Both the position numbers and the translations under genes were made by a program. A stretch of 37,011 nucleotides of DNA from Saprospiraceae bacterium (GTDB taxonomy: Bacteria; Bacteroidota; Bacteroidia; Chitinophagales; Saprospiraceae): contig JAHDEO010000005.1 in assembly GCA_020628725.1 (NCBI GenBank), forward strand, positions 11,174 to 48,184, in the 5' to 3' direction. This document shows positions 10,048 to 35,860 of this stretch, piece after piece (position 1 is the first letter of the stretch; every line of letters starts with the position of its first letter). Below the pieces are notes generated by a model. The model searched no databases, was not told the origin of the DNA, and was given only the letters and a program-made list of their open reading frames with translations.

Positions 10048-10071
10048 TTTTTTTTAATGTATAATTTCGCT

Positions 10072-11350: not shown

Positions 11351-11385
11351 AAGGAGGAAATAAATAATGGAAATTGTTGAAAAAC

Positions 11386-12423: not shown

Positions 12424-12443
12424 ATTTTTTTCATTTAAAAACA

Positions 12444-12465: not shown

Positions 12466-12494
12466 GTTAATACTAAAACTCTAATACATATTTT

Positions 12495-14012: not shown

Positions 14013-14050
14013 TAATAGTTTTGAATTAAAATAGTGCGTTGTGGTGTTGT

Positions 14051-14146
14051 GTAATGACTGCTTTAGCTGTCAAGTGCGTTTAATACACCAAAGCAATTAT
14101 TTATAAATATTTTCCATGACTACTTGACAGCTAAAGCAGTCATTAC
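14051..14146. repeat. Dispersed inverted repeat family A, copy 2
   Basis: Perfect 25-nt inverted arms at 14051-14075 and 14122-14146 (gtaatgactgctttagctgt and onward) with a 46-nt AT-rich centre. It has the same arms as the element at 1243-1354 but an unrelated, shorter centre. It occupies the junction between the DUF1972 glycosyltransferase and LRR genes. Confidence 0.9.
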
Positions 14147-14153
14147 GGGGCTT

Positions 14154-15329
14154 TTACCCAGATTGTGAGTATCTCTGTAAGGTGCGGATAGAAAGTGCAG
14201 GCTGCTTGCGCTTGGGTACGATAGTCGGTTGTGGATTTTCAACTACATCACCGTAAAGCATTGCCATTTTTTTCCAAGTATATTTTCGTTCTGCGATAAG
14301 TCTAAGATTTTCAGCAACTTGTGCCAAAGGCTGGAAGTCTATATTGCCAACTATTTGATATAAATCAATACCATTTTCAAAGAAAATTGCTTGATTATTC
14401 GTCGTTACGCGATTGTAAATGACATCGTAAGAGACAATTGGTAAACCCAAAAACATCGCCTCTACCAATGACGGATTCGTACCACCCGCGCTATGTCCAT
14501 GAACATAAAAATGGGCGTTGGAACGCAGCAAATTCAATTCCTCTGATTGGTAAATCGGGTCGAGTAAATAAATGTGTTTGAACTTGTCGAATCTTGCTTT
14601 CAAGTCTTTTCCATATTGGCTATTATTCCAATTACCCACTATTACAAATGGCTGATAAGGCAATTTAGAAAAAGCCTCAAGAATGATATGGATATTATTT
14701 TCCGGCTCAATTCGAGCGACTTTGAAGGCGTATTTTTTATTCAAAAACGGGTAACGAATCGCATCTTTTGGTCTCTTTTGAACTTGTGCAACATGGTCTG
14801 CGCCGTATTCGATGAGACGACTGTCGCGACTGTATCGTATTTTTACATACTCTTTCAAAATGCGGTTGTCAGTAATGATTTCGTCCGCATATTTACAAGC
14901 CATTTTTTCACTAAACAATAAAAAACGCTTTGCAAAACGCCCCCATTTAGGTCTGCGCCACTCCAATCCATCAATATTTACCATGATTTTTTTACGGGTA
15001 AATAATTTGATAATCGGCAAAAAAATACAACCCGAAACACCCAAAACCAATGCCGCATCACAAGTACGAAGCGCGAGAATGAGCGACCACAAATCGTAAA
15101 AAATACTCTGTGCGCCATTCGCATTGAGGGGAATGTATTCGAGCTTTGCGCCGTTGAATTCATCCATTCGTTCCTCTTCATCATAGGCTTTTTTGCTGCA
15201 ATACACCGTCATGTCAAAGCGGTCATGTAAATGTATAACCAAGTGATGCACAAGGGTTTCAAAGCCCCCATACTTTGCAGGTACGCCTACCGTACCGACT
15301 ATGCCGAGTGTCATTTTTTCCTTTTTCAT
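14154..15329 (-). CDS. GT4 glycosyltransferase with DUF1972 N-terminal domain
   Basis: About 391 residues. The N-terminal domain 'GIVGTVGVPAKYGGFETLVHHLV' matches the DUF1972 (PF09314) signature of rhamnosyltransferase-like GT4 enzymes. The C-terminal domain has 'FKVARIEPENNIHIILEAF' and 'HSAGGTNPSLVEAMFLGLPIV', the GT4 nucleotide-sugar site. It probably adds the second or third sugar onto the lipid-linked primer made by the WecA-like enzyme encoded just upstream. The track start at 15386 adds 19 residues ahead of the native strand, so the ATG at 15329 (MKKEKMTLGIVG) is chosen; 15314 is also possible. It is flanked by repeat arrays on both sides. The sugar specificity is not deducible. Confidence 0.9.
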   Translation of the reverse strand: MKKEKMTLGIVGTVGVPAKYGGFETLVHHLVIHLHDRFDMTVYCSKKAYDEEERMDEFNGAKLEYIPLNANGAQSIFYDLWSLILALRTCDAALVLGVSGCIFLPIIKLFTRKKIMVNIDGLEWRRPKWGRFAKRFLLFSEKMACKYADEIITDNRILKEYVKIRYSRDSRLIEYGADHVAQVQKRPKDAIRYPFLNKKYAFKVARIEPENNIHIILEAFSKLPYQPFVIVGNWNNSQYGKDLKARFDKFKHIYLLDPIYQSEELNLLRSNAHFYVHGHSAGGTNPSLVEAMFLGLPIVSYDVIYNRVTTNNQAIFFENGIDLYQIVGNIDFQPLAQVAENLRLIAERKYTWKKMAMLYGDVVENPQPTIVPKRKQPALSIRTLQRYSQSG

Positions 15330-15394
15330 TGTAGTGCATTTGTGGCTGCCTCTCATGTACCAACAGGCACACGAGGGCAAGCCCATTTAGAGGA

Positions 15395-15640
15395 ATGGGA
15401 GAACGAAAGTTCAAGTTCAAGCGTCAAATTCAAGCTCAAATTCATTTTGAATTTGACTCATTCGCTTGCTTGATTATCCATTAAAAAATAATCCAACAAA
15501 AGGGTCTGATAACCTGTGGTTGTGGTGTTCCGAGTAAGTATTTTGAACAAGCTTATCGCGTAGTTCTTTTGTTAATAATTCGCTGAAAGCGAATCAAATT
15601 TGAACTTGCTCTTGATGCTTGAACTTGCTCTTACTCAAGC
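15395..15640. repeat. Junction filled by 'ttcaagttcaag' word arrays (repeat G)
   Basis: The roughly 305-nt gap between the WecA-like and DUF1972 glycosyltransferase genes has no credible gene. It holds 'agttcaagttcaagcgtcaa' words, a hairpin CAAATTCA-TT-TGAATTTG, 'tcattcgcttgcttga', and inverted 'tttgaacttgctcttgatgc' words near 15600-15640. The central part (about 15480-15570) shows nothing recognisable. Confidence 0.7.
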
Positions 15641-16726
15641 AGATGTCTTCCTATGTGGTGGCATCTGAATAAGTGTGTGGTGAGTGGTGTGTTTGCGTTT
15701 TTCAGCTTCCTTTTTTCCAATATTTTTTACCAACAAAATGAAAATCATCATTGTGCAAGTAAAAACGAGAAGCCCCATGAGTAGAGATATGCTTGTATAA
15801 TTAGCGGCGAATAAAATCAAACAAATATTGAATGTGATGAGTGTTACACAAATTAGCGGTGTACTCATTTTTGCAGTATCCAACATGATATGATGGATGT
15901 GTTTTCTATCCGGTTGAAAGGGAGAGTTGCCCTTCGACATGCGCGTAATGAATACACGGACTAAGTCGATGACCGGAATGAAAATAATCGCGGCGATGAT
16001 AAGCGGTGCTTGTGTCGCACCTGCGCCGTAATATGACATGTTCAAAAATTGAATGCACAATACACCGATAATCAACCCAATAAGCGTGGAGCCTGTGTCG
16101 CCCATGAAAATTTTGGCTTTGTAAAAATTAAATTTCAAAAAGCCAATAATTGCTCCGGCAAGTGCAAAAGACAGTATGCTCCAAGCCGATTCGCCCATGA
16201 TGGCAAAGAGGATTCCGAAAGCTAATGCGCCGAGTGTGCCGAAACTTCCCGCGAGTCCGTCTATTCCGTCAATCAGGTTGTATGCATTGGTGAGTGCTGC
16301 CAAAAACAACAGCGTCATTCCAAAACTCAAGACCGGATGTATATGCTCTAAACCCATAAAACCATAAAAGCCCTCAATGCTGAATCCCGCATAAAACAGG
16401 ATTCCGGCAGCAGTTAGTTGAATGAGTAGTTTACGCGAGGCGCGAATTGGTAGAATGTCATCGACAATACCAATCATTGCTATCAACAGTGTTGCAGCTA
16501 TGAGATAATTAATAGCACCAAGACCGGAAAATAACGAAGCAGCTATCCAAAATCCGGCGAATATGGCGATACCGCCGAGCGAAGGTGTTGGGTGAGTGTG
16601 TAGTTTTCGAATATCGGGTTGGTCATAGACTTGCCGATGGTGGGCAATTTTGATAATCGCAGACGTACCTACGTACGCCACCGCGAGTGCCGTCGCAAAG
16701 GACAGCAAGGTGTAAAGTAGAACCAT
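15635..16726 (-). CDS. WecA/TagO-like undecaprenyl-phosphate sugar-1-phosphate transferase
   Basis: A 363-residue polytopic membrane enzyme of the MraY/WecA family (PF00953) with about 10-11 helices. It would start the polysaccharide by moving a HexNAc-1-phosphate from UDP to undecaprenyl phosphate. Catalytic and substrate motifs are visible: 'DQPDIRKLHTHPTPSLGG' (about 36-53), 'NLIDGIDGLAG' (the Asp-rich site, about 150), 'KIFMGDTGSTLIG' (about 207-219) and the WecA-type 'HIHH' in 'DRKHIHHIMLD'. MraY itself is unlikely, because the HIHH form and the context point to surface polysaccharide. It is the first gene of the locus in transcription order, with a structured leader upstream. Confidence 0.92.
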   Translation of the reverse strand: MVLLYTLLSFATALAVAYVGTSAIIKIAHHRQVYDQPDIRKLHTHPTPSLGGIAIFAGFWIAASLFSGLGAINYLIAATLLIAMIGIVDDILPIRASRKLLIQLTAAGILFYAGFSIEGFYGFMGLEHIHPVLSFGMTLLFLAALTNAYNLIDGIDGLAGSFGTLGALAFGILFAIMGESAWSILSFALAGAIIGFLKFNFYKAKIFMGDTGSTLIGLIIGVLCIQFLNMSYYGAGATQAPLIIAAIIFIPVIDLVRVFITRMSKGNSPFQPDRKHIHHIMLDTAKMSTPLICVTLITFNICLILFAANYTSISLLMGLLVFTCTMMIFILLVKNIGKKEAEKRKHTTHHTLIQMPPHRKTSA

Positions 16727-17672: not shown

Positions 17673-20600
17673 TCAATACTTCACAAATTCAATCGTCTCA
17701 CGATGTATTCCATTTCTCAAATGAATAAAATATACTCCATCACTAAGCTGCGACACAGGAATCATAATCTGGTTATTCGTTGGAATCGTCCAAGACGTTT
17801 TATAGATTTCCTGACCGAGTGTATTGTAGATTTGACATTGCAAATCGCCCAATAAGCCATCTTTATAATCAATGAAAATCTCATCCTTCGCAGGATTCGG
17901 ATAGACATTGAAATCAACGCCCAATGGCTTGCGATAAATCGCCACCGTACGGCTGTAGGTACTGCTGCCATCCGTGTCAAATTGTTCTAATCGGTAATAC
18001 GAATTTCCGCTAAAAGGCTGCTCGTCTATATGTTCGTAATTTTGAATCGTACTGCTCGTTCCGGCAGCTTGTACTTTTGTAATTGACTCAAAATCAACGC
18101 CATTGCGACTGCGTTGTACTTCGAAGTAATCGCTGTTTTGCTCGGTGGCTGTCTGCCAAAGCAATTGCACATCGCGTTCACGATTAATCGCATTAAATGA
18201 CACCAACTCAACAGGTATCAAAATCGCGGTATCTCGTATCCAAAATTCCGAGAAATCATCTACTTGAAATTCCACATAATTCACACCGAAATCCGTACCC
18301 AAAGTCGTTGTGATAAAGGTCAAATCTCCACCTTCCGTCGGGTCATACACATCATCTTCGCCTGTACCTGAATAGCGGACTACGCTGAGTTCATTCTCCA
18401 TCGGTGAATTATTTCCGGTTAGATTTTGATATTCTCCATCCGTAAAATACAAGCGTACGCTCACCATCGACTGCGGTGCAATTTCCGGAGAAATACGATA
18501 ATGACGTTCCATTAAAGTGTATTCGCCATTATAGTCGATAGGCATATCATTGACGTATAAATTCGCACTGACATTACCCAAATCACTACCCGATGTATTG
18601 AGAGAAAATAAAATGCGTCCCATGTTATCGGTGAAATGTTGCCAGCCTTGCAAGTCCGTGACACACACGCCCGCGCTGACCGCATCCGCCATTGGAAGAC
18701 CGGCTCCCATCGCACAAGTCGGAATACTTGACAAATCGACTTCCACCGTCACGATGTCTGTACTAAATGCCACACCATCACTCACCGAGACCAAGAAATC
18801 TAATTCCTGCCCCTGATTCGCTGCCGTGATTGAGAAAGAAGGTGTCGCAATCGTCTCATCATTCAGCGTGATGCCATCCGGAGGATACCATTGGAAGGTC
18901 AAATCATCGCCATCCGGGTCGAATGAATTTGTCGCGTCCAACATATAAGTCGTTTCCATAGTCACGAGGCTGTCCAAGCCTGCATCCGCGACAGGAAGGG
19001 CATTGCTGCCGACCTCGATTTCCCAAGTCGCATAGCTGATGTCGTTCCCCGAAACACCACTTGTGTATTTATTGAGTAATGTCAAATCAACGCCTATGGA
19101 ATAAGTACCCGGCGTATCATCTATCGTCGATAATCCGGTTAATTCAAACTCTGTCAATGATATCGCTTCAATAGATAAATCACTCGCATCCAGCACATTA
19201 TTATCATACAATAAAACTAAAGCATTTTGTACTTCTGAAAAATCCAATAATTGCGCGGAGAAAGTCAGGACCAGCGTATCAGGATGCTCAGTCAGCACTT
19301 GATTAGGTGCTAAATCCCAGTCTGCCGTCAATGCGGATTCATCAATGTAAATGTCGAAATTCGCTTCAACCGTGTTGCCATCTTCATCGGTAGCTTCCAC
19401 CAAAATCGCCGTATTACCGCCCGTATCGAATAGCAAAGGCACTGTGACCGCACCCGCGGGAACGGCATTGAGTGTCGTCAGCAAGGTCAATGAACCATTA
19501 TCATCTTGATAAATCCGAATCACATCCGCCGCTTGATTGATGCCAAATGATAAATCCAACACATTCGTAGCCGTCACACCATCCACTAGCGAGTAACCCA
19601 TATCCGGCGAGATGCCCAAGCCCGAAATCGCAATTTCGGGTGTTCTGTCCACCGTCCAAGTGGTCGTTTCTGTGCCTGTTCCGAAATTACCTGCTAAATC
19701 ACTAATTTGGCTCACGTCAACATTCAACACATAATCGCCTTCGGGATAGGTTGTTTGGTCAAATGATTCTACTTTGAAAGAAGTTGGATTTACGATGCTG
19801 ATTTCGGCAGGGTCGAGGTATTGCGCCGCACCGTCTTTCAATAAGCTAATCGCCATCGTATCAAACTCCATTATCGCCTCATCAAAATTCATATTTGCAC
19901 CTGTATAATGTTGTGCATCCAAACCACCGCCGATGAAGCGGAGTAGGTTGGTCAATTGTGGTGCTTGTGTATCCATCGTGAAGGTTTCGGATTGCATCGC
20001 CAAGCCCGGTGTACCGCCGTCCGATTCGATACCTGTCATGTCAATTATCAATTCATATTCACCATCATTACTGATAAATGAATTGATATTCGTCACTTCA
20101 AATAAAGTATTTTCCGCATTCAATGGGCTAATCGTAAACGTACCCGCCTGTATGCCGCCACCAAACATCACCTCCAAATCATCCGCCGTGAAGGTCGCGG
20201 GATTGATAGGCATATTGAATAAAATTTGTATCGTATTCAATTGATTGGTAAAGCCGTTTTCAGGAAAACCTGTAAACTCCAATACAGACGGAACGGATAA
20301 AAATTGTGTCCACGAAACTTGCTCGCCGACTTCGCCGCTCGTACCCGTAAGGTCTTCTACACCAGCCGCTTGTGCGGTGAATACATAGAAACCATCATTC
20401 ACCGTGAGAGCCGAAATATCTACTTCAAATGTCACCGAATCAATCTCTGTGATAATGACTGAATTATCAATCAAATTACTGCCGCCTTGCAATCTCAACA
20501 TCAAGTCTTCCGTACCAAATGTACCGTCAATAATTTCCTCGCTGAATGTGACTGTCAGCGTTTCAACTTGCATCGCAGTCAATTGGTTGGGATGTCCTTC

Positions 20601-23600
20601 AATACTGACGACGAAGGGCGGATTCGGGTCTTTCGGACTCCAAACGACCGTGTATGTGACTTCATCAAAGGTGTCAAAATCATCTACAAAATGGAATTTA
20701 TCTTCGTAAACAGGCTCTTTGCTATCGGGCAGTGTAACGTGCGTCAACCAAGCATTTTTCAACGGAATTTCCTGTCCGTCGCTATCGCGTGTGACGCTGA
20801 CGATTTCAAAGTTACCATTACCGGGGTCGTCTATTTTAATGTAATTCCAACCTTGTGCGGACGGGTCAATGTGGAAGGTATTCGTATTGCCTGCGGCAAG
20901 AATATTTCCTGTAAAATACGCGTCTTGTGCTTCAAAAACATCGTAAATCAAATTCCCTTGTGAAAGGTAAATCGCGTCCGGTGTTTCGTTGGCATCTTGT
21001 ATTTCATTCACCAAGAAATCATCCACACCGTCATCCTGTGTATATACCTCAATCGTGTGAATCGACTCATGCAATTCCACCCCGCTAATCAGACTCAAAT
21101 CAGGATTTCCAAAACTACTCAAATGGACAAGATTTGTTTCATAACTAATAAAATGTCCCAATAAAGTACTCGTGAAATACCATTGCCCGACCTTCGTGGA
21201 AAGCGGGGCGATGTCGCCGAATTGAATATTGGTTAATCCCATATTCGCGGGTTCGCCTTGTAGATTTGAACCAATCAAGCTGAATTCAATCGCCAAACCG
21301 TCTTCATTTTTAACGATTTCGGGTTGGGCAGATTCGATGAGAACGCCCATCGCCACGCCGTAACCATTATTTTCTACCATCACTGCTAATTCAGCAGGAA
21401 TAATCGGTTCGATAGCTTCGGTCAATGGGTCATCGCCGTAAATATCGCGCTGCATGAAATAGTGCAAATACAAATCAGGACTCGGATTCACCTGCAATGT
21501 AACCGGAATCAAAGGCACTGTCACCTCCAAACCGCTAAATGGGTCAAGGTAGCTGACCGAACCGCCAAAGGAATAATTCACCGGAACGGTAGGTGCAGCA
21601 CCGGGTTCGGGGATGAAAAGAATCGTTGCCGAGCCATCTTGTTGGGCGGCAAGCGAGCCTGTACCATCTACTCCCGTAAGGTTATTCAATCCTGTGACTT
21701 CGATTTGGAATAAATCATTACTCAATACGCCGTCGGGATTGAGAATTTCCAAATTCAATTGTAAATCTTGCAAGGCATCTGTCGGATGACCGTTGAATAC
21801 GCCGAGTGTACCTTCAAAGGCTTCGCGGGTCATGGTGAGTTGTTGGCTGATTTGAATGGTGACAGAAGAACATACGCCACTATTTGATTCGCCCTGATCT
21901 ACGATAATGTCAATAGATTCGTACAACATTTCATCAATACTCGCATAACCTCTATTAAATGCGTAGTCTTGAACTGACTGAATTTCAGCAATATACGCTT
22001 CGATGGAATCACGATTGACGATATTGGGATAAGTCGCATTGGGTGCATAAATACCATTGCTCCATGCCATTTGCGTCTCATTCCAACGACTGATAAATGC
22101 GTCAATTTCACTTTCTGAAATATCAAAATCCGCTAATTGTGCTTTAATATCATTAGCATCGCTTGGACTCACAGGCAGTTCATTGTCAACAAAGGGGCTG
22201 AGTGCCACCGCAAATTCGCTGACATTATCATTATCGGCTAATGGACCGAAATATTCGTCCATCCATGCATTATGCGCCTCGTATGCCATTTGAACTTGCA
22301 CTAAATCATCTCCTGCCTGTTGGATGATAGGCGGTACATCACCGGAGCTTTTATAAAGAAAATCCTCTAATTGTAAATTGCCATCACCGTCGCTACACAA
22401 GTCACCTCCGGCACAGGAATTAATGGTACAGATGATACTGATAATACAACCAATTCCCTTCTTAGGAATACACCCCAAAAGCCCGAAAAATGCGCCCGTA
22501 TTTGAGCCGCTTGTCAATACACCACCGATGCAGCCAATGGCACCCGTAGGCGGATAACAACCCAGTGCCGTAAAAACAACACTATTCACGCAGGCATTAC
22601 ATCCGATTTCCGTAACGGTACTCGGTGTATTATTATTAGGATTGCTCGGACCTGTGCCCGGACAGCCCGGACAGCCATTTGGTGAGCCACCGCCCGGACC
22701 AAAACCACCACCGGGAAGCCCCGAACCATTGCCCGGACATACCCTTCCGGAGTAGGTAAACATCTCTCCGCCTTGTTGCCACAAACCATTATCTCCGCAT
22801 TCGTACCAATACGCCGTAAAGGTGAAATCTTGACAATTTCCACTAAGACTCTGCGATTGGAAACTCTCGAAACCATCCTTTTCAATACCGAGAAAATCGG
22901 ATACATCTCCGTAGGTATTATAACCGTCATCATTGACGAATTCCTCGTTTTGTCCGCCGTTTCTGCGTCGCATCACGACAGGAACTTGGATGGCTTGTTG
23001 TGCCAATAAATCAGTTGGGGTGTAATTGGTAATAAACTCATATTCAGGGTCATCTGTCGGGAAATTCAATTCCACATCCCGCGCTGTGATTAAGCCGAAA
23101 TTGGTCATCGTCGCATAAAAGTTATATTCTTCGCTACCAAATAATTGCGGCATGGAATCCGGCATTTCGAGCAAGACTACGGGAGCAGGAACGTTGGTTT
23201 CAAACTCCATTATGAGGTCGATTTCATACACATCTTCCACCGTTGTCGGCACTACATCCCAAGTGAATGAAATCGCCTGATAAGGTAAAAATACCGTCTC
23301 GGTGACGTCTGTTCCGGGTAAAATTTCGACGGTGTTGTTGTAGCCTTCATGTTGCTCAGCTTGTACGGTCAGGCGCAGCGTACCTTCAGGCAGGCTATCC
23401 GCCATGAACAGCCCGTCTTCGTCGGTGACACCTTCGGCAAAAACTTCGCCTGTGAAGTAGTGGCTGATTTTCACTTGTGCGCCGGCTACGTGTGGAGCTT
23501 CTTCAGTAAAATAAGTGTATTGATCCACCACATCTACGATGATACCACCCGTTTCTTCGGATACTTTTTCGACGGTATATGGGATATTGAGGAAATTGCC

Positions 23601-26600
23601 ATTGGCGGCATTAATCACGATATTACCATTAGCAGGAGTATTTAATGGTAGTGACGCACCCGGCTTGAACTCAATGATTACCAGCGAAGTATCACCCGAT
23701 TCAAGTGAAGGCATCGTCGGTAATGTAATCAATGACATAAAATCTACCGGAGGTAGGCTTACGGTAATTTCACCCGTTTCTCCTTCACCATTATTATAAA
23801 TTTGAAATTCTAAATAATTGGATTGTGTTTGTGAAATGGTGCGGTTGATACTCGAAATTTCCGCGCTGATATAGCCTTGTTGTGCTTGACAGAAATAGAA
23901 CGCCGTTTGTTCGTACGACAAGTTTTCGTCGGAAGTAATTCGCAGTGGAATTTCCTGATAAAAACCAATCGGCGATACTTCCGTTCCGTTTACGGTGTAA
24001 TTAAATTCCTCTGTCGCACCACCCGCAATCGCAGGAATCGTATCAAATGTAACCGATGCGCCCGCCGGAAGCGACAAAGTTTCTGCCATAACATTATTCA
24101 AGGTAACGTCGCTTCTATTTCTCACGGAAATAGTGCCTGTTATCGGTTCGTTGAGCAATACTTCCCATAAAATAAATTGATTCGCATTGAGTTCTATTCC
24201 GAGAATATCAAATTCGTCTTGTGCTGTATTCGCGCCCATATCCGGGAAGGATGCTCCTACTTCGTAATGTCCCGCTTCGTTCGGAAGTGGTTCAAAAACA
24301 GTGGAATACGCGCCGCTGCCATCCGTTGTTACAGAAAATTCACGACGAATATTATCGCCTGTAATCACGTATAATTCTAACTCAACATTAGGCACAGGCG
24401 TATCAAATTCATCCACCGATTCACCATAAATCACAATATCATCACCTTGCAAAAAGACCGCCTCATCTACGATAGCCGTACCGAAATAATCCGGCTCTAA
24501 AGTGACCGTAAGCGGTTCGGAAGTGTTGTTTTGATATTGAATTTCGGTAATCGTACTTTCCGGATTGACCTCAAAAATCAGATAGTACGCTCCAGCCTCG
24601 TAAGGCGTGATGCCGACATCCCAAATTTCCAACGTATCACCAATCGCAATCGACGTATTGGTGGTGTATTGACCAATTTGAAAATCACTATTATTCAAAA
24701 TAGGGTCGTCCGAAATATAGCCACGTATCACCGCGCCACTCGGCGCAGATGCCAAGCCACTATTCGTTAAAAATACACGGAAATTAAAAGGTTCTTGTGC
24801 CGCCAAATTGGTGTCATCCAATGTAACATTTACTATCTCAAAATCGGGTTTATTATTGTCCGTGACAATCACAAACACAATACCCGGTGAGAAGTCCGTA
24901 GCCTCGGCTTGAATCGTAACTTGCTGATTACCATCGACTATACCATCTGCAACTGTTTCAATATCGACATTTACGGAAGATGCGCCTATAGGAATTATGA
25001 CCGTAGCAGGTAGCACCAATTCCGTCTCATCTGATGAAGTGAGATTGACGGTTAGCGGAACGTCAGTCGGGGTATTTCTTTCGATGCGAAGTGTACCTGC
25101 ATTCGTCGAACCTTCTGCCAAAGACAGCGGATTGACGAAAGCGGTGAGCGTAGGACCGTCGTTGTCCAGTACCGTAAGCGTATCCGAAAATACACCTGCA
25201 CTCGTACTTGACGCCGTACAATTACAAGACGCAATCAGGACAGATGCCGTGATTTCTATCTCTCTAATACCTTCATTTTGAAGATTATCAAAGACGCCGA
25301 TAAAGAAGCGTTTTTCCATCTCACCCGGACCAAGCGGCACGGTGGAAGGCAAGTACAAAGCTCCCGGACTATCCGTTGCAATATCGACTTGCAAGACACT
25401 ACTCGCATTGCCCAAGCGGGTAATTACGCCTTCGGTAGCATAAAAACCCGATGATTCGGAAATGGTATCGTTTGTAATCGCAAAAGTAATCGCGGGAATG
25501 TCCTCGTCATTGGTGAGGGTAAATGAGGCGTTGGCTGCCACAAGCCCTGCCGAACCTGCTGTGATAGTGATAATTTCGTCCTCTTCGGCAATGTCGTCGT
25601 CGGGTAGCGTGACTTGTACATTTGCGGTGGTCATCCCCGGTGGAATGACAACGGGCGTAGGCAAAGGCACTTCATCCGGCGAGTCAGAAATGATGTTGAT
25701 AAATAAGGTGTCGGGCGAAGAAAAATCAGTCACTATATCAAAATCCAAGACTTCGCCTTCGGCAATCATCGCAGGTAAATTATTGATGGATAAAGTCGGA
25801 ATTTCATCATCAATTAATAAAAACTGCTCTGTATCAGGCGTGTAGCCCGTCGCGCTTGCCGTCATTTCGATTTCTATATCTCCTTCTAAATCAGAATTTT
25901 GAATGGAATAAATGTAAAATGCTCTACCCGCTTGCCCCGCGCTGATAGTCACGGTGGCAGAGGCATTGAAACGTGCGGGTTCGTTCAAAGTGATATTGAC
26001 CGTTTGACTTTGTACGGTTGAGCCACTGCGTGTGACGGTGCAGTAGAGACTGTTGCCCTCGTTAATTTGGTCATTTGCCAATGTCAAGAAAAGGATACTC
26101 TCAATCGTCCATGCTTGATTTTCAAAGGCAATATTATTCGCCGTAGAAAGCGGAATTTCAAGAATATTCGGGATAATTTCTACTACAAAAATCCCTTGAT
26201 TGCCGATGTTGAGGTCGTTCGGCAAGTTGAGGTTATAACTGCGATTGAAGAAGGCTCCGGCTTGAAGTGAGTCCGTTCCATCGTAGTCAAATTGTCCGAC
26301 CAAAGTACGATTTTGACCGCCGGGAGCTTCGATATAGACCTTCTCTGTCCAATCCGTGACTGCTGCGCCATCGCCGATATTTCCAATCGTCCATGTGACG
26401 GTGGCAGGGTCGCCGGGTTGTGCAGTCGTTAAATCTGACACCACATTAATCACTTGTAAATCAGGTAATTCAGGAAGTGGATTTACGGTGATTGTGACGG
26501 TGGCGGTAGCTTCGCAGCCGTTGTCGTCTGTCGCGACGACTTGGTACATTTGCGTCTCGAAAGGTGCAACTTGGAGGGTCGGGCTAAATGGATTTTCGCC

Positions 26601-29600
26601 TTCGAGTTCGCCACTCCATTCGTAGTTGGTTGCGCCGCTTGCGGTCAAGGTCAGCGTATCGCCATAGTCAATTGTCGCATCAGGTGTCACCACCAAATTG
26701 ACTGCCGGATAAGAAATGACCTCAATCGAAGTGGTGTCGTTGAAGGTCAATTCATCCGTACCCAAAAGCGTATATGCCGCGAGCGTGTAGGTGCTGTCTG
26801 CGATGAGTGTGACGGGCGTTGCAAAGGTATGTTCGAGTGTAAATCCGGGGTCAATTGACTGATTTACAGTTTCTACGATGGGAGTGTCATCGCCCAATTG
26901 ATAGGCTACATCAAAATTAGATTGAGTGAGGCTGCCCGGATTTTTGATGACGATGGTTACGTCGCTATTCGGTGGAATGTCGCAGCCTGTGGTCGGGCTT
27001 AGAATGTCGATGACGCCTAAATTATTTTCCAAACTCGTAAACTCATCTGCACCAATATCGGGCGCAAGCGGATTACGAAAATCACCGTCAATATCTTCAG
27101 GCAAACCATCAACGGGTGTACCTTGTTCGCTTAATAATTGTTGGGCGATGTGGAGATCGTCATTCGCAATAAATTCGGGGTCAAGATTGAAGGAATTGGC
27201 ATCGTGTCCACTGCCCGATTGCCAACTTCCAAGGCTGGTACGATTGCCCATGAGATAGCCAACCTTTCCACCGGGAGCGTAAAAATCGTTGTAATCTGAC
27301 TCGGTGATGTCGTTGGAATTTTCCGCATAAATAGCGTATCCTGTGCCGATATTTGCGAATATATTATTTTTGAGATTCGCAAAATTACCATTCAAATAAA
27401 TGGCGCGTCCTGCGGTCGCTTCGTTGGCTGTAACGAGGATATTATTGTGGAAAATGTCAATGTAATTCCCACTAAGTCGCATTCCGTAAGTCGTACTTGC
27501 GCCGTCAATCGTTACAAAATTATTTCCGATAAGTCCATGTACTTCTGTGCTTGCAGTGCCTGCGCTTACATCAATTCCATAAGTTGCATCATTGAGAATC
27601 AATGTGTTACCAATCACTTCAAAAGCATCACGAGGGCTTAACATATAAATGCCTCGACTCATGCTTCCTGTATTGATAATATCATTCGACCGGATAACCG
27701 GAGCAATGTGATAGCGTATGGTAATGGCATCGCTTGATTGCCCTGTAAACAGATTATCCTCGACTAATAAATTGGTCGAATTATTATAACTATTATCATA
27801 AAAACCATAAGTACCACCGCTAAATTGATTTTCTGTTATTTGTAAATTATCTACAAAATTATCCACGCGAATACCCATATACGAGGTCGAAAATCGACAA
27901 TTATTGATATTTACATTTTCATTTGTACCGGATAAAATCATGCAGTACGCGCTATTCGCATCTTGCTCAAAAGTCAAGTGGCGGAACTCGATGTGATCGG
28001 TGCTATCTAATTGAATGACGATATTACCATAATCGCTCACGCCATTCATTATCGTGACACTCGTACTGTCCTGACTTTCGGATTGAAAGAGGATTTGGTC
28101 ATTGACGGATGCGCCGAGGATTTGATTGATTTCGACATTTTCAGCGTATGTACCGTCTTGAATATTGAAGGTGACATCGCCGACTACGCCGCCACGTTCG
28201 AGGGCTTCGGCGGCTTGTGTAATGGTTTGAAAATCAGCATTATTTGTGCCTATTGTGTATGTGCCTATGAGGGCGGCATACATGTCATCAACTTCGAGGG
28301 TATCGTTGTCAGCGTAGCTGTCAGCTTGCCCGTTGGGGTCGGCTACCCAGACTTTCAAATCATAGGGTTGCGCCACGTCAAATTGGAAGGTACCAATCGA
28401 CACATCATCGGATGTACCGGAGGGGATATTGCCCGTCCAGTTCACCTCGCGGATAGTATCGTTGTTCATTGACCAGCTAATCGTAGCGGAAGTCAAGGGC
28501 GTAGTGAAATTATTGACAACGTTGATAATCAGTTCATTAGTGCCTTGTGGGAAGGGTGGTGTAGGCGAGATTAAATTTACGATTCCAATGTCATCAAAAG
28601 CAGTCGGTGACTCGTCCGCACCGATATAGGGCGAAAGCGGATTCCGTTCATCGCCCTCAATATCTTCCGTGACACCTGCAATCGGAATACCCACTGCGAG
28701 GAGAATATTATTGGTATGTAAATCATCTGCCGACTGGAATAGCGGGTCGAGCGAGATGGAATTACCGTCTTGCTGCGTGGCAAATTCCCAAGCGGTCAAA
28801 TCGGCGGCGTCTGCACCGTCCCAATTACCAAGCGTCGCGCCTGTGGTGTGGTAATCGTTATAATCTTGCACCAAGCCCGTCGTCGTGTAACCTTGCATTG
28901 CCCAACCGCCGCCTTGATGTGAGAAGATGTTGTTGCGAATATCCGCGTTATCACTATATCGTTGGTAAAATGCTTCGTAACTCGCTGCACCTGTTGTCAG
29001 GACGCTATTGAAATATACATTGGTGTTGTCTGCATTATATAAATAAAAGCCATCGCCTTGCGACGAAACCATATTATTGATAATGCGAGAGCTTTGTGCC
29101 GCAACGCTCAGGTCGCGTACATATAAGCCTGTGTTGGTGCTGTTGTTGTAAATTTGATTGTTTTCAATTTGAGTGTATTGGCTGTTACGAGCGTCGATAC
29201 CTGTGTTTCTTATGTCAACTGTATTGCCCATAATTTCAAGGGTATTGGCAACATAACGGACGTAAATGCCCGAACTGCCGTTGGGATTATTTATTTCATT
29301 ATTATGAATAATAACGCTATCGCCATCGTAATTGTAAATTTCGTAATTGCTACTTGTATGAACGCTGTTAATTTGATTATCTGTGATAATGACGCCGTTC
29401 AAAGTATTACTTGACAAAGAAATCGCTTCGCGACAATTATTAAATTCATTCCCCGAAAAACGAAAATCAGCGCAGCTTCCGCTATACGAATTATAGATTG
29501 CGTGGGTATTATTTCCATTAAAAATGCAATTGGAAATATCGAGGTTATTTATGCTGCCATTCAATCTGAAAATGAGGTTATAAGAACCAAAAGGTCGGAA

Positions 29601-32600
29601 AGTCAGATTTTCAAAACAAACATTATCCGTCCCGTTTAATCTGACCACAGCAAAAGCGTTGTTGTCATACGGCGAATTATATTCTATAAGCACATCCGCA
29701 GCATTACCTGTTTCTGAGCTAAATGTTACTTTGTTTACCTCCGAACTTCCGGTTATTTGTCCCAATACCAATTGCTCTGTAAAGGTGTCGCTTCGCATCA
29801 ACATACGCACCGAATCGCGTACTCCGCCGTAATTGAGGGCGTCTTGTACAGCAGCCAAATCAGCAAAGTCAGGCGATGTACCGCCAATCGTAAATTGACC
29901 TGCTAAAGTCGTATAGAAGTTGCTGATAACCAGTGTGTCATCTGTCGGGTCGAGGTCGCTTGCGCCATTGGGTCGGGAAGACCAAATGCGGATTTCGTAT
30001 TCCGTAATTTCCTCAAAATCGTAATTGCCGAGTGGGACATTTTCGCTGTCGCCTACGTTCAAATTACCCACCCAAGCGACGGGTGTTTGTGCCATGCTAT
30101 TCACTTCCCAATACAGCGAATCCGTCATCAAAATACTCGGTCCGCTATTCAACAAATCTACCGAAACAGGATGCGTGCCGGGGTCAAGCGGCAACTCAGG
30201 TTCGGCGAATGTGATACCTGCATTGTCGCCCGTAGGTGTGAACTCATACGCGCCCATATCCGGCGGCGTGCTACGTGTAGTGCCTTCAATATCAAGCGGA
30301 TGTTCGGTAATTGTTTCTCCTGCTTCATCAAGTAAAGCCTGATTTGGGCGGAGGTCGTCAGCACTATTGTAAACGGGATTAGTTACAACGGAATTGGCGT
30401 CTTGCGAAGAGGCAGCTTGCCAGTCAGCGAGGTTGGCGTAGTTGGTGTCTTGCCAATTGCCAAAATTGCTGCCTGTGCTGTAATAGGCGTTGTAGTCTTG
30501 CACCAAATCGGTCTGAGAATAAGCGTAAATCGCCAAGCCGCCGCCTTGGTGTGAAAAGACGTTATTACGGAAATTCGAGTAATCAGAATATCGCTGATAA
30601 AACGCCTCGTAGTTTGCCGCACCTGTCGTCAATACACTGTTGAAATAGACATCCGTGTAATCATTATTATAACAATAAAAACCATCGCCCTGCCCGGAAA
30701 CCACATTATTGACTACGCTTGAGCGTCGGGCAACATTACCATTATCGCGGACATATAAGCCTGTATTTGTACTGAAATTATAAACTTGGTTATTTTCGAT
30801 TTGAATATGTCCAGCATTACGGGTGTCGATACCTGTGTATCTTATGTCAACTGTATTACCCACAATTTCAAGGGTATTGGCAATATAACGTGCGTAAATT
30901 CCCGAACTACCATTTGGATTATTCATTTGATTGTTATGAATAATAATACTATCGGGGTCGTAACAATAAATATCATAATTACTTCCTGTGTGAACGCTGT
31001 TAATTTGATTATCTGTGATAATAACGCCGTTCAAAGTATTACTTGACAGGTGAATTGTTTCGCGGCAATTATTAAATTCATTATCCGAAAAATTAAAATC
31101 AGAACAAGCTCCACTATAAGAATTATAAATCGCGTGGGTATTATTTCCATTAAAAATACAATTGGAAATATCGAGGTTATTTATGCTGCCATTCAATCTG
31201 AAAATGAGGTTATAACTGCCTCCAAGCGGCTCAAAAGTCAGATGTTGAAAAGCTACGTTGTCTGTTCCTTGCAATCTGACCATTGCAAAATTATTATTAT
31301 CATACGGCGAATCATATTGAATGGTGACATCGGCTGCATTGCCGGTTTCTGCTTGGAAAGTGACGGTGTTTGTCGGCGAAGTTCCCGCGAATTGCCAGAG
31401 ATATAATCGCTCGATGTATGTACCGCTTCGTATTAACATATTGACCGCACCGCGTATTCCACCATAATTTACGGCATCTTGTGCCGCAGTCAAATCAGCG
31501 AAATCAGGCGATGCGCCGCCCACTGTAAAATCCCCTGCCAATGTGGTGTATAAATTACTGATAACCAATGTGTCATCCATTGGGTCAATATCTGTCATTC
31601 CATTCGGACGGCTTGACCAAATGCGGATTTCGTATTCCGTAATTTCATCAAATTGGTAATTGCCGAGTGCGACACTTTCGCTGTCGCCTACATTCAAATT
31701 ACCTGCCCAAGCAACGGGTGTTTGTGCCACGCCATTCACCTCCCAATACAAGGAATCGGTCATCAAAATACTCGGTCCGTTATTCATCAAATCCACTGAA
31801 ACGGGGTAGGTTCCGGGGTCAAAAGGCGTGAGTGGCGCGGTATAGGTGATGCCTGAATTGTCGCCCGTTGCAGTAAATTCGTATGCGCCCATGTCCGGTG
31901 GCGTACTGCGCGTAGTACCTTCAATATCAAGTGGATACATGGCAATCGCTGCGCCTGCGTCGTCGATGAGTGCTTGATTTGGTCGTAGGTCAGTCGTGCT
32001 TGTATAGACGGGATTGGCGTTGATAGAATTGGCGTCTTGCGAAGATGTGGCTTGCCAGTCGGCGAGGTTGGAGTAGTTGGTGTCTTGCCAATTTCCGAAA
32101 TTGCTGCCCGTGTTGTGATAGGCGTTATAATCTTGTACCAAATTCGTTGCAGCATAGCTGTAAATTGCTAAACCGCCACCTTGATGTGAGAAGATATTAT
32201 TGCGAATGTCGGTATTGTCCGAGTATCTTTGATAGAATGCCTCGTAGCTGCTCAAACCTGTTGTAAGAACGCTATTGAAATAGACATCTGCGTAGTCATT
32301 ATTGTAGAAATACATGCCATCGCCTTGCCCGGAAACGACATTATTGACGATGCTTGAGCGTCGGGCAACATTACCGTTATCGCGGATATACATGCCCGTA
32401 TTTGTACTGAAATTATACACTTCGTTATTTTCAATTTGAACGTGTGTGGAATTTCGAGCATCAATACCTGTGTATCTTATATCAACTGTATTGCCCACAA
32501 TTTCAAGGGTGTTGGCAACATAACGCGCGTAAATGCCCGAACTACCGCTTGCATTGATAGATGTATTATTATGAATAATCAGACTATCAATATCATAGCA

Positions 32601-33239
32601 ATAAATATCGTAATTGCTGCCTGTATGGACGCTGTTGAATGTATTATCTGATATAATGACATCGGTCATACTGTTATTGCTGAGAGAAATCGCTTCGCGA
32701 CAATTATTGAATTCATTATTGGTGAAACTCAATCCTGTACAACTTCCACCATAAGAATTGTAAATGGCGTAGGTGTTATTTCCATTAAAAACGCAATCGG
32801 AAATCTCGACATCGCTCGTTCCATTTGACAATCTGAAAATGAGGTTATAATTATTACCGAGCGGTTCAAAGGTCAGGTTTTGGAAACGGATATGGTCTGT
32901 GCCATCCAATCGGACTACAGCATAGTTGTTGCCATCATACGGCGAATCGTATTGAATCGTGACATCGGCTGCACTGCCTGTTTCGGATTGAAATGTAATC
33001 GTATTGGTGCTTGATGCGCCGAATATTTCTTCGATGGTCATTTGCTCGATGTACGTCCCTGAGCGTATGTCGAAAATGACGGGCGAGCTGATTCCGTTGA
33101 GATTCAGGTCATTAACGGCGTCCGAAAGCGTCGGGTAATCCGGCGAACTGCCGCCGATTGTGTACGTTCCTGAAAGTTGACTATGTGCTAAAAAGGGGAA
33201 AAGGAGTAGAGTAGATAGAAGGTAGAATCGTGTCATCAT
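17673..33239 (-). CDS. Giant multidomain T9SS-secreted surface protein (5,188 aa)
   Basis: Secreted surface protein, probably an adhesin or structural fibre. The signal peptide is residues 1-20 (cleavage after 'FLAHS'). Three tandem right-handed beta-helix modules start at residues 24, 569 and 1114, each exactly 545 residues ('GGSSPDYPTLSDAVNDL'-type start, parallel beta-helix middle, CARDB-like end). A fourth, divergent one covers 1659 to about 2178. Then follow a CARDB-like region (about 2255-2380), Calx-beta-like repeats (about 2382-2790), a second CARDB-like region (about 2797-2900), carboxypeptidase-regulatory-like parts (about 2945-2985, 3233-3320), a Cys/Gly-rich stretch (3469-3615), a large unassigned conserved-looking block (about 3790-4113), SbsA/Big-type Ig-like repeats (about 4205-4740), a PKD-like domain (about 4745-4830), and a type A T9SS sorting domain ('FNVYPNPAKDEIFID', 5110-5188). 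The frame is open throughout. The ligand is unknown. Confidence 0.95.
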   Translation of the reverse strand: MMTRFYLLSTLLLFPFLAHSQLSGTYTIGGSSPDYPTLSDAVNDLNLNGISSPVIFDIRSGTYIEQMTIEEIFGASSTNTITFQSETGSAADVTIQYDSPYDGNNYAVVRLDGTDHIRFQNLTFEPLGNNYNLIFRLSNGTSDVEISDCVFNGNNTYAIYNSYGGSCTGLSFTNNEFNNCREAISLSNNSMTDVIISDNTFNSVHTGSNYDIYCYDIDSLIIHNNTSINASGSSGIYARYVANTLEIVGNTVDIRYTGIDARNSTHVQIENNEVYNFSTNTGMYIRDNGNVARRSSIVNNVVSGQGDGMYFYNNDYADVYFNSVLTTGLSSYEAFYQRYSDNTDIRNNIFSHQGGGLAIYSYAATNLVQDYNAYHNTGSNFGNWQDTNYSNLADWQATSSQDANSINANPVYTSTTDLRPNQALIDDAGAAIAMYPLDIEGTTRSTPPDMGAYEFTATGDNSGITYTAPLTPFDPGTYPVSVDLMNNGPSILMTDSLYWEVNGVAQTPVAWAGNLNVGDSESVALGNYQFDEITEYEIRIWSSRPNGMTDIDPMDDTLVISNLYTTLAGDFTVGGASPDFADLTAAQDAVNYGGIRGAVNMLIRSGTYIERLYLWQFAGTSPTNTVTFQAETGNAADVTIQYDSPYDNNNFAMVRLQGTDNVAFQHLTFEPLGGSYNLIFRLNGSINNLDISNCIFNGNNTHAIYNSYSGACSDFNFSDNEFNNCRETIHLSSNTLNGVIITDNQINSVHTGSNYDIYCYDPDSIIIHNNQMNNPNGSSGIYARYIANTLEIVGNTVDIRYTGIDTRNAGHIQIENNQVYNFSTNTGLYVRDNGNVARRSSVVNNVVSGQGDGFYCYNNDYTDVYFNSVLTTGAANYEAFYQRYSDYSNFRNNVFSHQGGGLAIYAYSQTDLVQDYNAYYSTGSNFGNWQDTNYANLADWQAASSQDANSVVTNPVYNSADDLRPNQALLDEAGETITEHPLDIEGTTRSTPPDMGAYEFTPTGDNAGITFAEPELPLDPGTHPVSVDLLNSGPSILMTDSLYWEVNSMAQTPVAWVGNLNVGDSENVPLGNYDFEEITEYEIRIWSSRPNGASDLDPTDDTLVISNFYTTLAGQFTIGGTSPDFADLAAVQDALNYGGVRDSVRMLMRSDTFTEQLVLGQITGSSEVNKVTFSSETGNAADVLIEYNSPYDNNAFAVVRLNGTDNVCFENLTFRPFGSYNLIFRLNGSINNLDISNCIFNGNNTHAIYNSYSGSCADFRFSGNEFNNCREAISLSSNTLNGVIITDNQINSVHTSSNYEIYNYDGDSVIIHNNEINNPNGSSGIYVRYVANTLEIMGNTVDIRNTGIDARNSQYTQIENNQIYNNSTNTGLYVRDLSVAAQSSRIINNMVSSQGDGFYLYNADNTNVYFNSVLTTGAASYEAFYQRYSDNADIRNNIFSHQGGGWAMQGYTTTGLVQDYNDYHTTGATLGNWDGADAADLTAWEFATQQDGNSISLDPLFQSADDLHTNNILLAVGIPIAGVTEDIEGDERNPLSPYIGADESPTAFDDIGIVNLISPTPPFPQGTNELIINVVNNFTTPLTSATISWSMNNDTIREVNWTGNIPSGTSDDVSIGTFQFDVAQPYDLKVWVADPNGQADSYADNDTLEVDDMYAALIGTYTIGTNNADFQTITQAAEALERGGVVGDVTFNIQDGTYAENVEINQILGASVNDQILFQSESQDSTSVTIMNGVSDYGNIVIQLDSTDHIEFRHLTFEQDANSAYCMILSGTNENVNINNCRFSTSYMGIRVDNFVDNLQITENQFSGGTYGFYDNSYNNSTNLLVEDNLFTGQSSDAITIRYHIAPVIRSNDIINTGSMSRGIYMLSPRDAFEVIGNTLILNDATYGIDVSAGTASTEVHGLIGNNFVTIDGASTTYGMRLSGNYIDIFHNNILVTANEATAGRAIYLNGNFANLKNNIFANIGTGYAIYAENSNDITESDYNDFYAPGGKVGYLMGNRTSLGSWQSGSGHDANSFNLDPEFIANDDLHIAQQLLSEQGTPVDGLPEDIDGDFRNPLAPDIGADEFTSLENNLGVIDILSPTTGCDIPPNSDVTIVIKNPGSLTQSNFDVAYQLGDDTPIVETVNQSIDPGFTLEHTFATPVTLIADSTYTLAAYTLLGTDELTFNDTTSIEVISYPAVNLVVTPDATIDYGDTLTLTASGATNYEWSGELEGENPFSPTLQVAPFETQMYQVVATDDNGCEATATVTITVNPLPELPDLQVINVVSDLTTAQPGDPATVTWTIGNIGDGAAVTDWTEKVYIEAPGGQNRTLVGQFDYDGTDSLQAGAFFNRSYNLNLPNDLNIGNQGIFVVEIIPNILEIPLSTANNIAFENQAWTIESILFLTLANDQINEGNSLYCTVTRSGSTVQSQTVNITLNEPARFNASATVTISAGQAGRAFYIYSIQNSDLEGDIEIEMTASATGYTPDTEQFLLIDDEIPTLSINNLPAMIAEGEVLDFDIVTDFSSPDTLFINIISDSPDEVPLPTPVVIPPGMTTANVQVTLPDDDIAEEDEIITITAGSAGLVAANASFTLTNDEDIPAITFAITNDTISESSGFYATEGVITRLGNASSVLQVDIATDSPGALYLPSTVPLGPGEMEKRFFIGVFDNLQNEGIREIEITASVLIASCNCTASSTSAGVFSDTLTVLDNDGPTLTAFVNPLSLAEGSTNAGTLRIERNTPTDVPLTVNLTSSDETELVLPATVIIPIGASSVNVDIETVADGIVDGNQQVTIQAEATDFSPGIVFVIVTDNNKPDFEIVNVTLDDTNLAAQEPFNFRVFLTNSGLASAPSGAVIRGYISDDPILNNSDFQIGQYTTNTSIAIGDTLEIWDVGITPYEAGAYYLIFEVNPESTITEIQYQNNTSEPLTVTLEPDYFGTAIVDEAVFLQGDDIVIYGESVDEFDTPVPNVELELYVITGDNIRREFSVTTDGSGAYSTVFEPLPNEAGHYEVGASFPDMGANTAQDEFDILGIELNANQFILWEVLLNEPITGTISVRNRSDVTLNNVMAETLSLPAGASVTFDTIPAIAGGATEEFNYTVNGTEVSPIGFYQEIPLRITSDENLSYEQTAFYFCQAQQGYISAEISSINRTISQTQSNYLEFQIYNNGEGETGEITVSLPPVDFMSLITLPTMPSLESGDTSLVIIEFKPGASLPLNTPANGNIVINAANGNFLNIPYTVEKVSEETGGIIVDVVDQYTYFTEEAPHVAGAQVKISHYFTGEVFAEGVTDEDGLFMADSLPEGTLRLTVQAEQHEGYNNTVEILPGTDVTETVFLPYQAISFTWDVVPTTVEDVYEIDLIMEFETNVPAPVVLLEMPDSMPQLFGSEEYNFYATMTNFGLITARDVELNFPTDDPEYEFITNYTPTDLLAQQAIQVPVVMRRRNGGQNEEFVNDDGYNTYGDVSDFLGIEKDGFESFQSQSLSGNCQDFTFTAYWYECGDNGLWQQGGEMFTYSGRVCPGNGSGLPGGGFGPGGGSPNGCPGCPGTGPSNPNNNTPSTVTEIGCNACVNSVVFTALGCYPPTGAIGCIGGVLTSGSNTGAFFGLLGCIPKKGIGCIISIICTINSCAGGDLCSDGDGNLQLEDFLYKSSGDVPPIIQQAGDDLVQVQMAYEAHNAWMDEYFGPLADNDNVSEFAVALSPFVDNELPVSPSDANDIKAQLADFDISESEIDAFISRWNETQMAWSNGIYAPNATYPNIVNRDSIEAYIAEIQSVQDYAFNRGYASIDEMLYESIDIIVDQGESNSGVCSSVTIQISQQLTMTREAFEGTLGVFNGHPTDALQDLQLNLEILNPDGVLSNDLFQIEVTGLNNLTGVDGTGSLAAQQDGSATILFIPEPGAAPTVPVNYSFGGSVSYLDPFSGLEVTVPLIPVTLQVNPSPDLYLHYFMQRDIYGDDPLTEAIEPIIPAELAVMVENNGYGVAMGVLIESAQPEIVKNEDGLAIEFSLIGSNLQGEPANMGLTNIQFGDIAPLSTKVGQWYFTSTLLGHFISYETNLVHLSSFGNPDLSLISGVELHESIHTIEVYTQDDGVDDFLVNEIQDANETPDAIYLSQGNLIYDVFEAQDAYFTGNILAAGNTNTFHIDPSAQGWNYIKIDDPGNGNFEIVSVTRDSDGQEIPLKNAWLTHVTLPDSKEPVYEDKFHFVDDFDTFDEVTYTVVWSPKDPNPPFVVSIEGHPNQLTAMQVETLTVTFSEEIIDGTFGTEDLMLRLQGGSNLIDNSVIITEIDSVTFEVDISALTVNDGFYVFTAQAAGVEDLTGTSGEVGEQVSWTQFLSVPSVLEFTGFPENGFTNQLNTIQILFNMPINPATFTADDLEVMFGGGIQAGTFTISPLNAENTLFEVTNINSFISNDGEYELIIDMTGIESDGGTPGLAMQSETFTMDTQAPQLTNLLRFIGGGLDAQHYTGANMNFDEAIMEFDTMAISLLKDGAAQYLDPAEISIVNPTSFKVESFDQTTYPEGDYVLNVDVSQISDLAGNFGTGTETTTWTVDRTPEIAISGLGISPDMGYSLVDGVTATNVLDLSFGINQAADVIRIYQDDNGSLTLLTTLNAVPAGAVTVPLLFDTGGNTAILVEATDEDGNTVEANFDIYIDESALTADWDLAPNQVLTEHPDTLVLTFSAQLLDFSEVQNALVLLYDNNVLDASDLSIEAISLTEFELTGLSTIDDTPGTYSIGVDLTLLNKYTSGVSGNDISYATWEIEVGSNALPVADAGLDSLVTMETTYMLDATNSFDPDGDDLTFQWYPPDGITLNDETIATPSFSITAANQGQELDFLVSVSDGVAFSTDIVTVEVDLSSIPTCAMGAGLPMADAVSAGVCVTDLQGWQHFTDNMGRILFSLNTSGSDLGNVSANLYVNDMPIDYNGEYTLMERHYRISPEIAPQSMVSVRLYFTDGEYQNLTGNNSPMENELSVVRYSGTGEDDVYDPTEGGDLTFITTTLGTDFGVNYVEFQVDDFSEFWIRDTAILIPVELVSFNAINRERDVQLLWQTATEQNSDYFEVQRSRNGVDFESITKVQAAGTSSTIQNYEHIDEQPFSGNSYYRLEQFDTDGSSTYSRTVAIYRKPLGVDFNVYPNPAKDEIFIDYKDGLLGDLQCQIYNTLGQEIYKTSWTIPTNNQIMIPVSQLSDGVYFIHLRNGIHRETIEFVKY
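28266..33170 (-). repeat. Three tandem 1,635-bp coding repeats in the giant gene
   Basis: Modules start at nt 33170, 31535 and 29900, and a fourth, divergent one follows at 28265, so the three spacings are each exactly 1,635 bp. Modules 1-3 are alike at the DNA level; modules 2 and 3 share a 57-nt identical stretch (29527-29583 and 31159-31215), while modules 1 and 2 share others near 30720 and 32350. This points to tandem duplication followed by patchy exchange. Confidence 0.9.
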
Positions 33240-35026: not shown

Positions 35027-35860
35027 ATGGTAAAAAAAATACGCAATACGATTTTTATATTAGCTTTGAGTGTCAGCTTGGCGTTTTCTCAGACGGTGCA
35101 TGATTTCACGGTCGTAGATACGCACGGTAATACGCACGAACTTTACGCAGATTATCTTGACCAAGGCAAGACCGTTGTTATTGACTTTTTCTGGGTCAAT
35201 TGTGGACTGTGTTTTAATCTTGGTCCATATATGGAATCGCTTTACCAAGAGTGGGGAGGCGGAGAATATGATGTGCAATTTATCGGTTTGACGATTATGG
35301 CAGGCGATGACAATATGGACGTGATCAGTTTTGATAATGGAGCAGGAATTTCTTACCCTTCCATTAGTGCGGAAGGTGGAGCTATCGAAGCAGGTGCACC
35401 ATTTTTGGATGACGATTATGGTTTCTTTGAAGGTACGCCCGGTATTGCTGTCATCTCACCGGATGGTTCGGTGCAATTTGATATATTTGGTAGTGCGCCC
35501 AGTTCTGTTATTCCTATGGTGGAGCAACAAATTATTGACTCTGGAGCGAGACATCCTTCTGAAATCACAGATGTAGAAGATGCCCTTCCTGTTTTTGAAG
35601 AATTAGTGGTATTTCCCAATCCTGCGCGTGATTTTGCTTCAGTCAATTTTACACTCAATGAAAATGCTGATGTCAATGTTCAGGTATTCAATATGTTAGG
35701 ACAGTCTGCATTGGAAGTCTTCAATGGCAATAAATACCCGGGTTATCATCAAGTGGACTTCGATCCGTCTCTACTCTCACCCGGTACTTATTTTGTTCGT
35801 ATTGCTGCGAATGATAATGTACAAACTACACGTCTCATAAAACTACACTCCAATCCGTAG
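35027..35860 (+). CDS. Secreted thioredoxin-fold (TlpA/redoxin-like) protein with T9SS type A tail, copy 1
   Basis: 277 residues. Signal peptide 'MVKKIRNTIFILALSVSLAFS' (1-21), then a TlpA/AhpC-like domain (about 24-175): 'DFTVVDTHGNTHELYADYL', 'KTVVIDFFWVNCGLCFNLGP' with a CGLC redox motif, and 'GTPGIAVISPDGSVQFDIF' holding the cis-Pro Thr-Pro. The tail 'VVFPNPARDFASVNF..MLGQSALEVF..SPGTYFVRI' (about 195-277) is a type A T9SS sorting domain. It probably acts as a thiol-disulfide or peroxidase-like protein on the cell surface. It is a tandem paralogue of the next gene and has its own terminator, so it is probably transcribed separately. Confidence 0.9.
   Translation: MVKKIRNTIFILALSVSLAFSQTVHDFTVVDTHGNTHELYADYLDQGKTVVIDFFWVNCGLCFNLGPYMESLYQEWGGGEYDVQFIGLTIMAGDDNMDVISFDNGAGISYPSISAEGGAIEAGAPFLDDDYGFFEGTPGIAVISPDGSVQFDIFGSAPSSVIPMVEQQIIDSGARHPSEITDVEDALPVFEELVVFPNPARDFASVNFTLNENADVNVQVFNMLGQSALEVFNGNKYPGYHQVDFDPSLLSPGTYFVRIAANDNVQTTRLIKLHSNP

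Follow-up and report, generated by a model that had tools for sequence, protein, structure and literature searches.

Probable recombination in a giant, putative T9SS surface protein of a Saprospiraceae bacterium

Giant extracellular proteins with an N-terminal beta-solenoid head have been described for Apilactobacillus kunkeei, whose Giant1-4 proteins exhibit exchange of solenoid domains between lineages (PMC12863079). The protein described here, termed P, resembles Giant1-4 and the serine-rich repeat proteins in being a giant, putatively extracellular protein with an N-terminal solenoid head on a long body. Those proteins are, however, Gram-positive, with one solenoid domain described and another type of stalk and anchor, whereas P is a presumed T9SS substrate and proteins of its type contain an array of three to five helix-sandwich modules. 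SprB and RemA of Flavobacterium johnsoniae are very large T9SS surface proteins, as P would be, and RemA likewise has a tail of type A (PMC10202324), but no SprB repeat was detected in P. A putative signal peptide, a C-terminal type A domain and a host with SprA are shared with T9SS type A cargo (PF18962/TIGR04183); in contrast to such cargo, the C-termini of the orthologous giants from sister species are formed by other, unlisted domains. The helices of P match PF13229 far above the cut-off, as expected of right-handed parallel beta-helix proteins (PF13229, PF05048; pectate lyase and PL6 fold), but differ in that the helix body is without a conserved catalytic set and the helices form a tandem array with a sandwich between them. 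No direct report on giant or beta-helix T9SS proteins of Saprospiraceae was found in the literature.

The DNA analyzed (the window) is a stretch of 37,011 nucleotides from contig JAHDEO010000005.1 of a draft genome assembled into 683 contigs (GCA_020628725.1), the nearest named relatives of which are Saprospiraceae MAGs. The window contains no N, and the gene of P is one open frame (Table 1). A first-pass annotation, made from the sequence alone, had reported this 5,188-residue ORF without naming a strand; the ORF was borne out and is located on the minus strand. The N-terminus of P was judged by eye to be hydrophobic, as in a Sec signal peptide, and the T9SS tail noticed in that annotation was matched by PF18962 (E 2.3e-13) and, also above the cut-off, by TIGR04183. 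The Ig_7/PKD-like domain adjoins the head-body junction (~2250-2259). Two sister species are represented by the records JAHDFX010000125.1 (Saprospiraceae; G150), with two modules termed S1 and S2, and CALIZI010000104.1 (G114), with a module termed Q3. A search for phage or plasmid relatives found none. The GC content is 44 to 46% in the giant gene (window 18000-32000) and 37 to 43% in the flanks.

Table 1. Features of the gene for P and of the encoded protein (positions are those of the window)
Feature	Residues of P	Window positions	Strand	Remarks
Gene for secreted giant protein P	1-5188	17673..33239	minus	5,188 aa; stop codon included; one open frame
Signal peptide	1-21	33177..33239	minus	MMTRFYLLSTLLLFPFLAHSQ; putative, read from sequence
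Module M1	24-568	31536..33170	minus	545 aa; A type except homogenized center
Module M2	569-1113	29901..31535	minus	545 aa; apparent recombinant
Module M3	1114-1658	28266..29900	minus	545 aa; B type
Module M4	1659-2177	26709..28265	minus	Conserved last module of head
Ig_7/PKD-like domain	2178-2254	26478..26708	minus	Under Pfam cut-off
Conserved body	2250-4838	18726..26492	minus	
CARDB (body)	2797-2907			
CarboxypepD_reg (body)	3251-3316			
PKD (body)	4746-4796			
Body core	3790-4205	20625..21872	minus	
C-terminal part	4839-5188	17676..18725	minus	Separate downstream gene in G150 orthologue
T9SS type A sorting domain (Por_Secre_tail)	5112-5180	17700..17906	minus	

The regular spacing of modules to which the first-pass annotation had drawn attention was confirmed, while the explanation given for it is replaced here by one in which P is a recombined giant T9SS surface protein. 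Module starts fall at residues 24, 569, 1114 and 1659, a spacing of 545/545/545 residues with which a module-start HMM agreed, and the compensating length changes are seen in M3, where two deletions and two insertions, all of a single residue, balance each other. The M1-M2 alignment is free of gaps. M4 is a true family member (about 32% identity) with a helix ~23 residues, or roughly one rung, shorter than in M1 to M3, the distance from the module start to a GA(D/Y)E motif being 404 residues in M4 and 427, 427 and 426 residues in M1, M2 and M3, respectively. The M3 orthologue has 546 residues in G114 and 547 in G150, and the M1 orthologue in G150 has 545, giving a two-module array of 545+547 residues in the latter. 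Four or five modules, at roughly 30 to 40% identity, are present in each of five distant giants belonging to the same family or genus, and the module-start HMM, with one spurious half-hit in G003 left out, gave spacings of 594/532/543/547, 555/537/543/546, 542/543/545, 557/537/541 and 532/543/549. These 17 spacings range from 532 to 594 with a median of 543, and 12 of them are within 6 residues of 543. A loose module length of ~543 residues is a family-wide property, and an exact length of 545 is not. Strict structural constraint, exerted by a continuous stacked beta-helix fibre needing an exact number of residues per module, had been offered as one cause of the spacing. Such a fibre would account for the three equal spacings, the cancelling indels of M3 and the loosely conserved length of the distant modules, but a constraint at 545 is contradicted by the lengths of the M3 orthologues and of the modules in distant giants and by the shorter helix of M4, and in the predicted model a beta-sandwich breaks up the helices, making this explanation very unlikely.

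The predicted model concerned was a two-module AlphaFold2 model based on six sequences (mean pLDDT 72, pTM 0.47). Each module, twice over, consisted of a beta-helix (~1-335), a low-confidence cap (340-444) that includes a choice-of-anchor-Q region (NF041518) and a 7-strand sandwich (~440-545), so that a module is predicted to be a right-handed beta-helix with a cap and a separate beta-sandwich. With a cap and a sandwich modelled between successive helices, the long stacked beta-helix of the first-pass annotation was not upheld; continuous stacking is not predicted, and the model, at this pTM, leaves the orientation between modules unfixed. The M4 sandwich had a weak match to CARDB, below the cut-off, and the sandwiches of M1 to M3 received no Pfam assignment. 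One weak PDB sequence match of the module profile (E 0.08), in which the sandwich part was aligned with a cellulose-binding module, was not used.

The PF13229 Beta_helix model matched P in five stretches with a score of 117.9 bits against a gathering cut-off of 25.9. Foldseek gave pectate-lyase-like beta-helix proteins, which have polysaccharides as substrates, as the best matches, with PL6 alginate lyases, rhamnogalacturonan lyase and pectin methylesterase as the nearest folds, and these folds raise the alternative that P displays, in its beta-helices, a tandem series of polysaccharide lyases or hydrolases. The sequence identities of these matches are, however, only about 10 to 14%, and Pfam assigns to the modules nothing beyond the generic Beta_helix and NosD (PF05048) models. 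Across 31 modules, the conserved positions of the helix body are Asn, Gly and mostly hydrophobic residues, while conserved charged residues are few (R36, E42 and E63) and are located in the N-terminal region. Catalysis is disfavored because the helix body of these 31 modules contains no invariant cluster of charged or His residues, and the enzymatic alternative is considered unlikely.

A second cause suggested for the spacing was recent tandem duplication. The modules are tandem and collinear, and the gap-free alignment of M1 with M2 would be expected if a single module had recently been duplicated. Identity at the DNA level is, however, 74% for M1-M2, 66% for M2-M3 and 60% for M1-M3, with NG86 dS values of 1.2, 1.4 and 3.4, respectively. 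The orthologous pair formed by M3 of P and M3 of G114 has a dS of 1.4, and this resemblance indicates that divergence among the modules is comparable to that of the species. Furthermore, the A and B types occur in the sister species too and, hence, predate the species split. Recent duplication of a single module is, in the face of this divergence, extremely improbable.

The two ends of M2 differed in their relationships to the other modules. In a tree of columns 1 to 120, M1 and S1 were set apart from M2, M3, S2 and Q3 with support of 100/100, and a clade of M1 and M2 was rejected (p 0.007). In a tree of columns 331 to 548, M1, M2 and S1 were set apart from M3, S2 and Q3, again with support of 100/100, and a clade of M2 and M3 was rejected (p 1.5e-33). 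As judged by sequence, M2 was shown to be a mosaic of an N-terminal part of B type (M3-like) and a C-terminal part of A type (M1-like), and identities measured in windows along the modules also bore this out. The A-B order is seen in G150 as a two-module array, while in G114 the end of an A-type module is followed by a B module and the contig ends inside the array. We propose that the ancestral head had two modules, A-B, and that unequal homologous crossover, with B in one gene copy pairing with A in a second copy, would have produced a three-module A-(B/A)-B array. A large gene conversion of M2 could take the place of the crossover; the sequence alone fits either.

Under the proposed crossover, the equal lengths of the modules would have two separate origins. 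The indels separating A from B are located in the C-terminal part (columns 403 to 443), and because M2 takes these columns from A, M1 and M2 are equal in length by descent. M3 is without one residue at column 105 that is kept by both M3 orthologues; M3 reached 545 residues through this separate, chance one-residue deletion, and its equality with M1 and M2 is a coincidence. The spacing of 545 would then be the result of the crossover, which made M1 equal to M2, and of a chance deletion in M3, both acting within the loose family length of ~543. In a tree of columns 1 to 210, the modules grouped by species and not by type, and S1 and S2 of G150 have 350 identical bp in common. Gene conversion is still at work in the center of the helices and has homogenized this middle part. 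The count of two modules in G150 is possibly due to assembly collapse at the 350-bp exact repeat. On this account, P clearly illustrates how a giant protein can come to have exactly spaced repeats although nothing constrains their length, the ingredients being two ancestral modules, one unequal crossover leaving a recognizable hybrid, and gene conversion.

Repeat arrays are a usual weak spot of draft genomes, and the fragmentation of this genome, together with the lack of a second witness for the tail fusion described below, would allow the three-module array or the fusion to be an assembly artefact. Against this, the frame is open across all junctions, M2 copies neither of the neighboring modules and no exact 61-mer is repeated in the gene of P, the longest exact module-to-module match being 57 bp. 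Because no 61-mer recurs, the array should be resolvable even by short reads, and the assembly error in the repeat region that the first-pass annotation had allowed for looks unlikely. There is very little chance that either the array or the fusion is an artefact. In G150, a frameshift (L070 around 11319-11407; residue 2868/2870 of P) interrupts the orthologue and is either real or an assembly error.

BLASTP matches of P divide at ~residue 2250. The head (residues 21 to 2249) was matched over nearly its whole length at ~32 to 34% by giants in G003, G106, G114, G115 and G128, and the comparison with the G114 orthologue gave 67%. None of the head-family giants compared has the body of P, and several have a body in common; the bodies in this family are often CARDB-rich, with that of the G114 orthologue containing seven CARDB domains. 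The body (residues 2250 to 4838) was matched at 41 to 57% by giants in G149, G115, G050, G058, G108 and G722, at 29% by a partial one in G769 and at 32% by T9SS-like proteins of lesser length in G434 and G354. None of the body-family giants compared has the head of P, their heads being other beta-helix arrays, Recep_L/LRR solenoids or laminin-G. Both families are present in G115, in two different proteins, and among the proteins compared the head and body meet only in P and the G150 orthologue. P is a chimera whose head, body and tail are parts that occur apart from one another in other giants, and it thereby demonstrates the exchange of whole parts among giant T9SS proteins.

The best-conserved part of the body comprises residues ~3770 to 4210, with 71 to 90% identity to G150 per 100 residues compared to 44 to 83% for the modules. 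The body core within this part is 85% identical to G150 and gave no sequence match in Pfam, NCBIfam or the PDB; structure prediction of the core resulted in a pLDDT of 32, and no fold is claimed. An HESIH motif in the core, which is HExxH-like, was considered as a zinc protease site but rejected, as it reads HELIQ in G150. The core is sporadic, being detected in 7 of 298 genomes of the family and a few in other families, mostly within very large ORFs, and this distribution suggests loss or horizontal spread. The conserved, unannotated body of ~2,600 residues is the part that merits a structure.

The genome contains at least 150 type A tails and a full-length gene for the SprA translocon (TIGR04189, 2402 bits). 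In G150, the C-terminus of the orthologous body is formed by an unlisted domain (...GRGASFEY). The counterpart of the last ~350 residues of P is found there at the end of a separate gene of 577 residues, which has a T9SS-like tail and is located just downstream (L070:2679-4409). Fragments from G151 and G152 matching P residues 4618 to 4835 (72%) lead into a related domain ending in ...NNGVSSRVPK or ...NNGISSRVPK. On the one witness of G150, the T9SS tail of P looks to have replaced another C-terminus through a deletion joining the giant to the neighboring gene. In the orthologues, an unlisted C-terminal domain occupies the position of the known T9SS tail.

The SSRVPK domain is ~210 aa long, contains HRNHVGVM, has a dockerin-like end (D.N.DG.V) and closes with ...NNGxSSRVPK; variants close with ...GRGASFEY (L070, L121) or ...GRGALFQY (L039). 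The last 113 aa of this domain (L035:201-540, minus strand, from a 3,908-aa ORF) had 74 matches in the genome of the window, and the domain had no match in Pfam or NCBIfam. It is a candidate for an unlisted sorting or anchoring domain. A tentative, rather doubtful idea is that Saprospiraceae recombine heads (helix-sandwich arrays, Recep_L solenoids and laminin-G lectins), the ~2,600-residue body and sorting tails as units; with tails exchanged between orthologues, the ...SSRVPK/...GRGASFEY domain would then function as a T9SS sorting domain does.

P is probably a chimeric surface giant exported by the T9SS, with a crossover-built head of four modules, an Ig-rich body and a tail, that acts in non-enzymatic binding. 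Sec would export P, and the T9SS would then move it across the outer membrane via the type A tail, with retention at the surface. The body, which is rich in Ig-like domains, may extend the helix modules away from the cell, each of the four head modules presenting a rod-like binding surface, such that the head could act as a multivalent, non-enzymatic binder of polysaccharide or particles. Multivalent surface binding is the most likely role and the most economical one, because the giant solenoid adhesins are analogous and because solenoid and lectin heads are exchanged on the same body. The first-pass annotation had described a giant that is secreted and has both tandem beta-helix modules and a T9SS tail; this description was supported and the extended surface structure is plausible, whereas a stacked-helix fibre was not supported. 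P could instead serve in gliding motility as an adhesin that is moved over the cell surface, in the manner of SprB or RemA of F. johnsoniae, as it is a giant T9SS surface protein in a host with SprA and has its type A tail in common with RemA (PMC10202324). The domain search, however, found no SprB repeat in P, and nothing in the present data links the locus with motility; a gliding function is improbable.

Downstream of P, on the same strand, a surface-sugar cluster (window 63-16726) contains glycosyltransferases, a NeuB synthase, a formyltransferase, a DegT aminotransferase, Polysacc_synt_2 and a family 4 (WecA-like) glycosyl transferase. This cluster is in keeping with a cell-surface locus, without being proof of one. 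A protein with leucine-rich repeats and a T9SS tail of type B (CHU_C) is encoded within the cluster (window 12495-14012). Two tandem redoxin/AhpC-like proteins of similar size, each carrying a T9SS tail of type A, are encoded at window 35027-35860 and 36128-36976.
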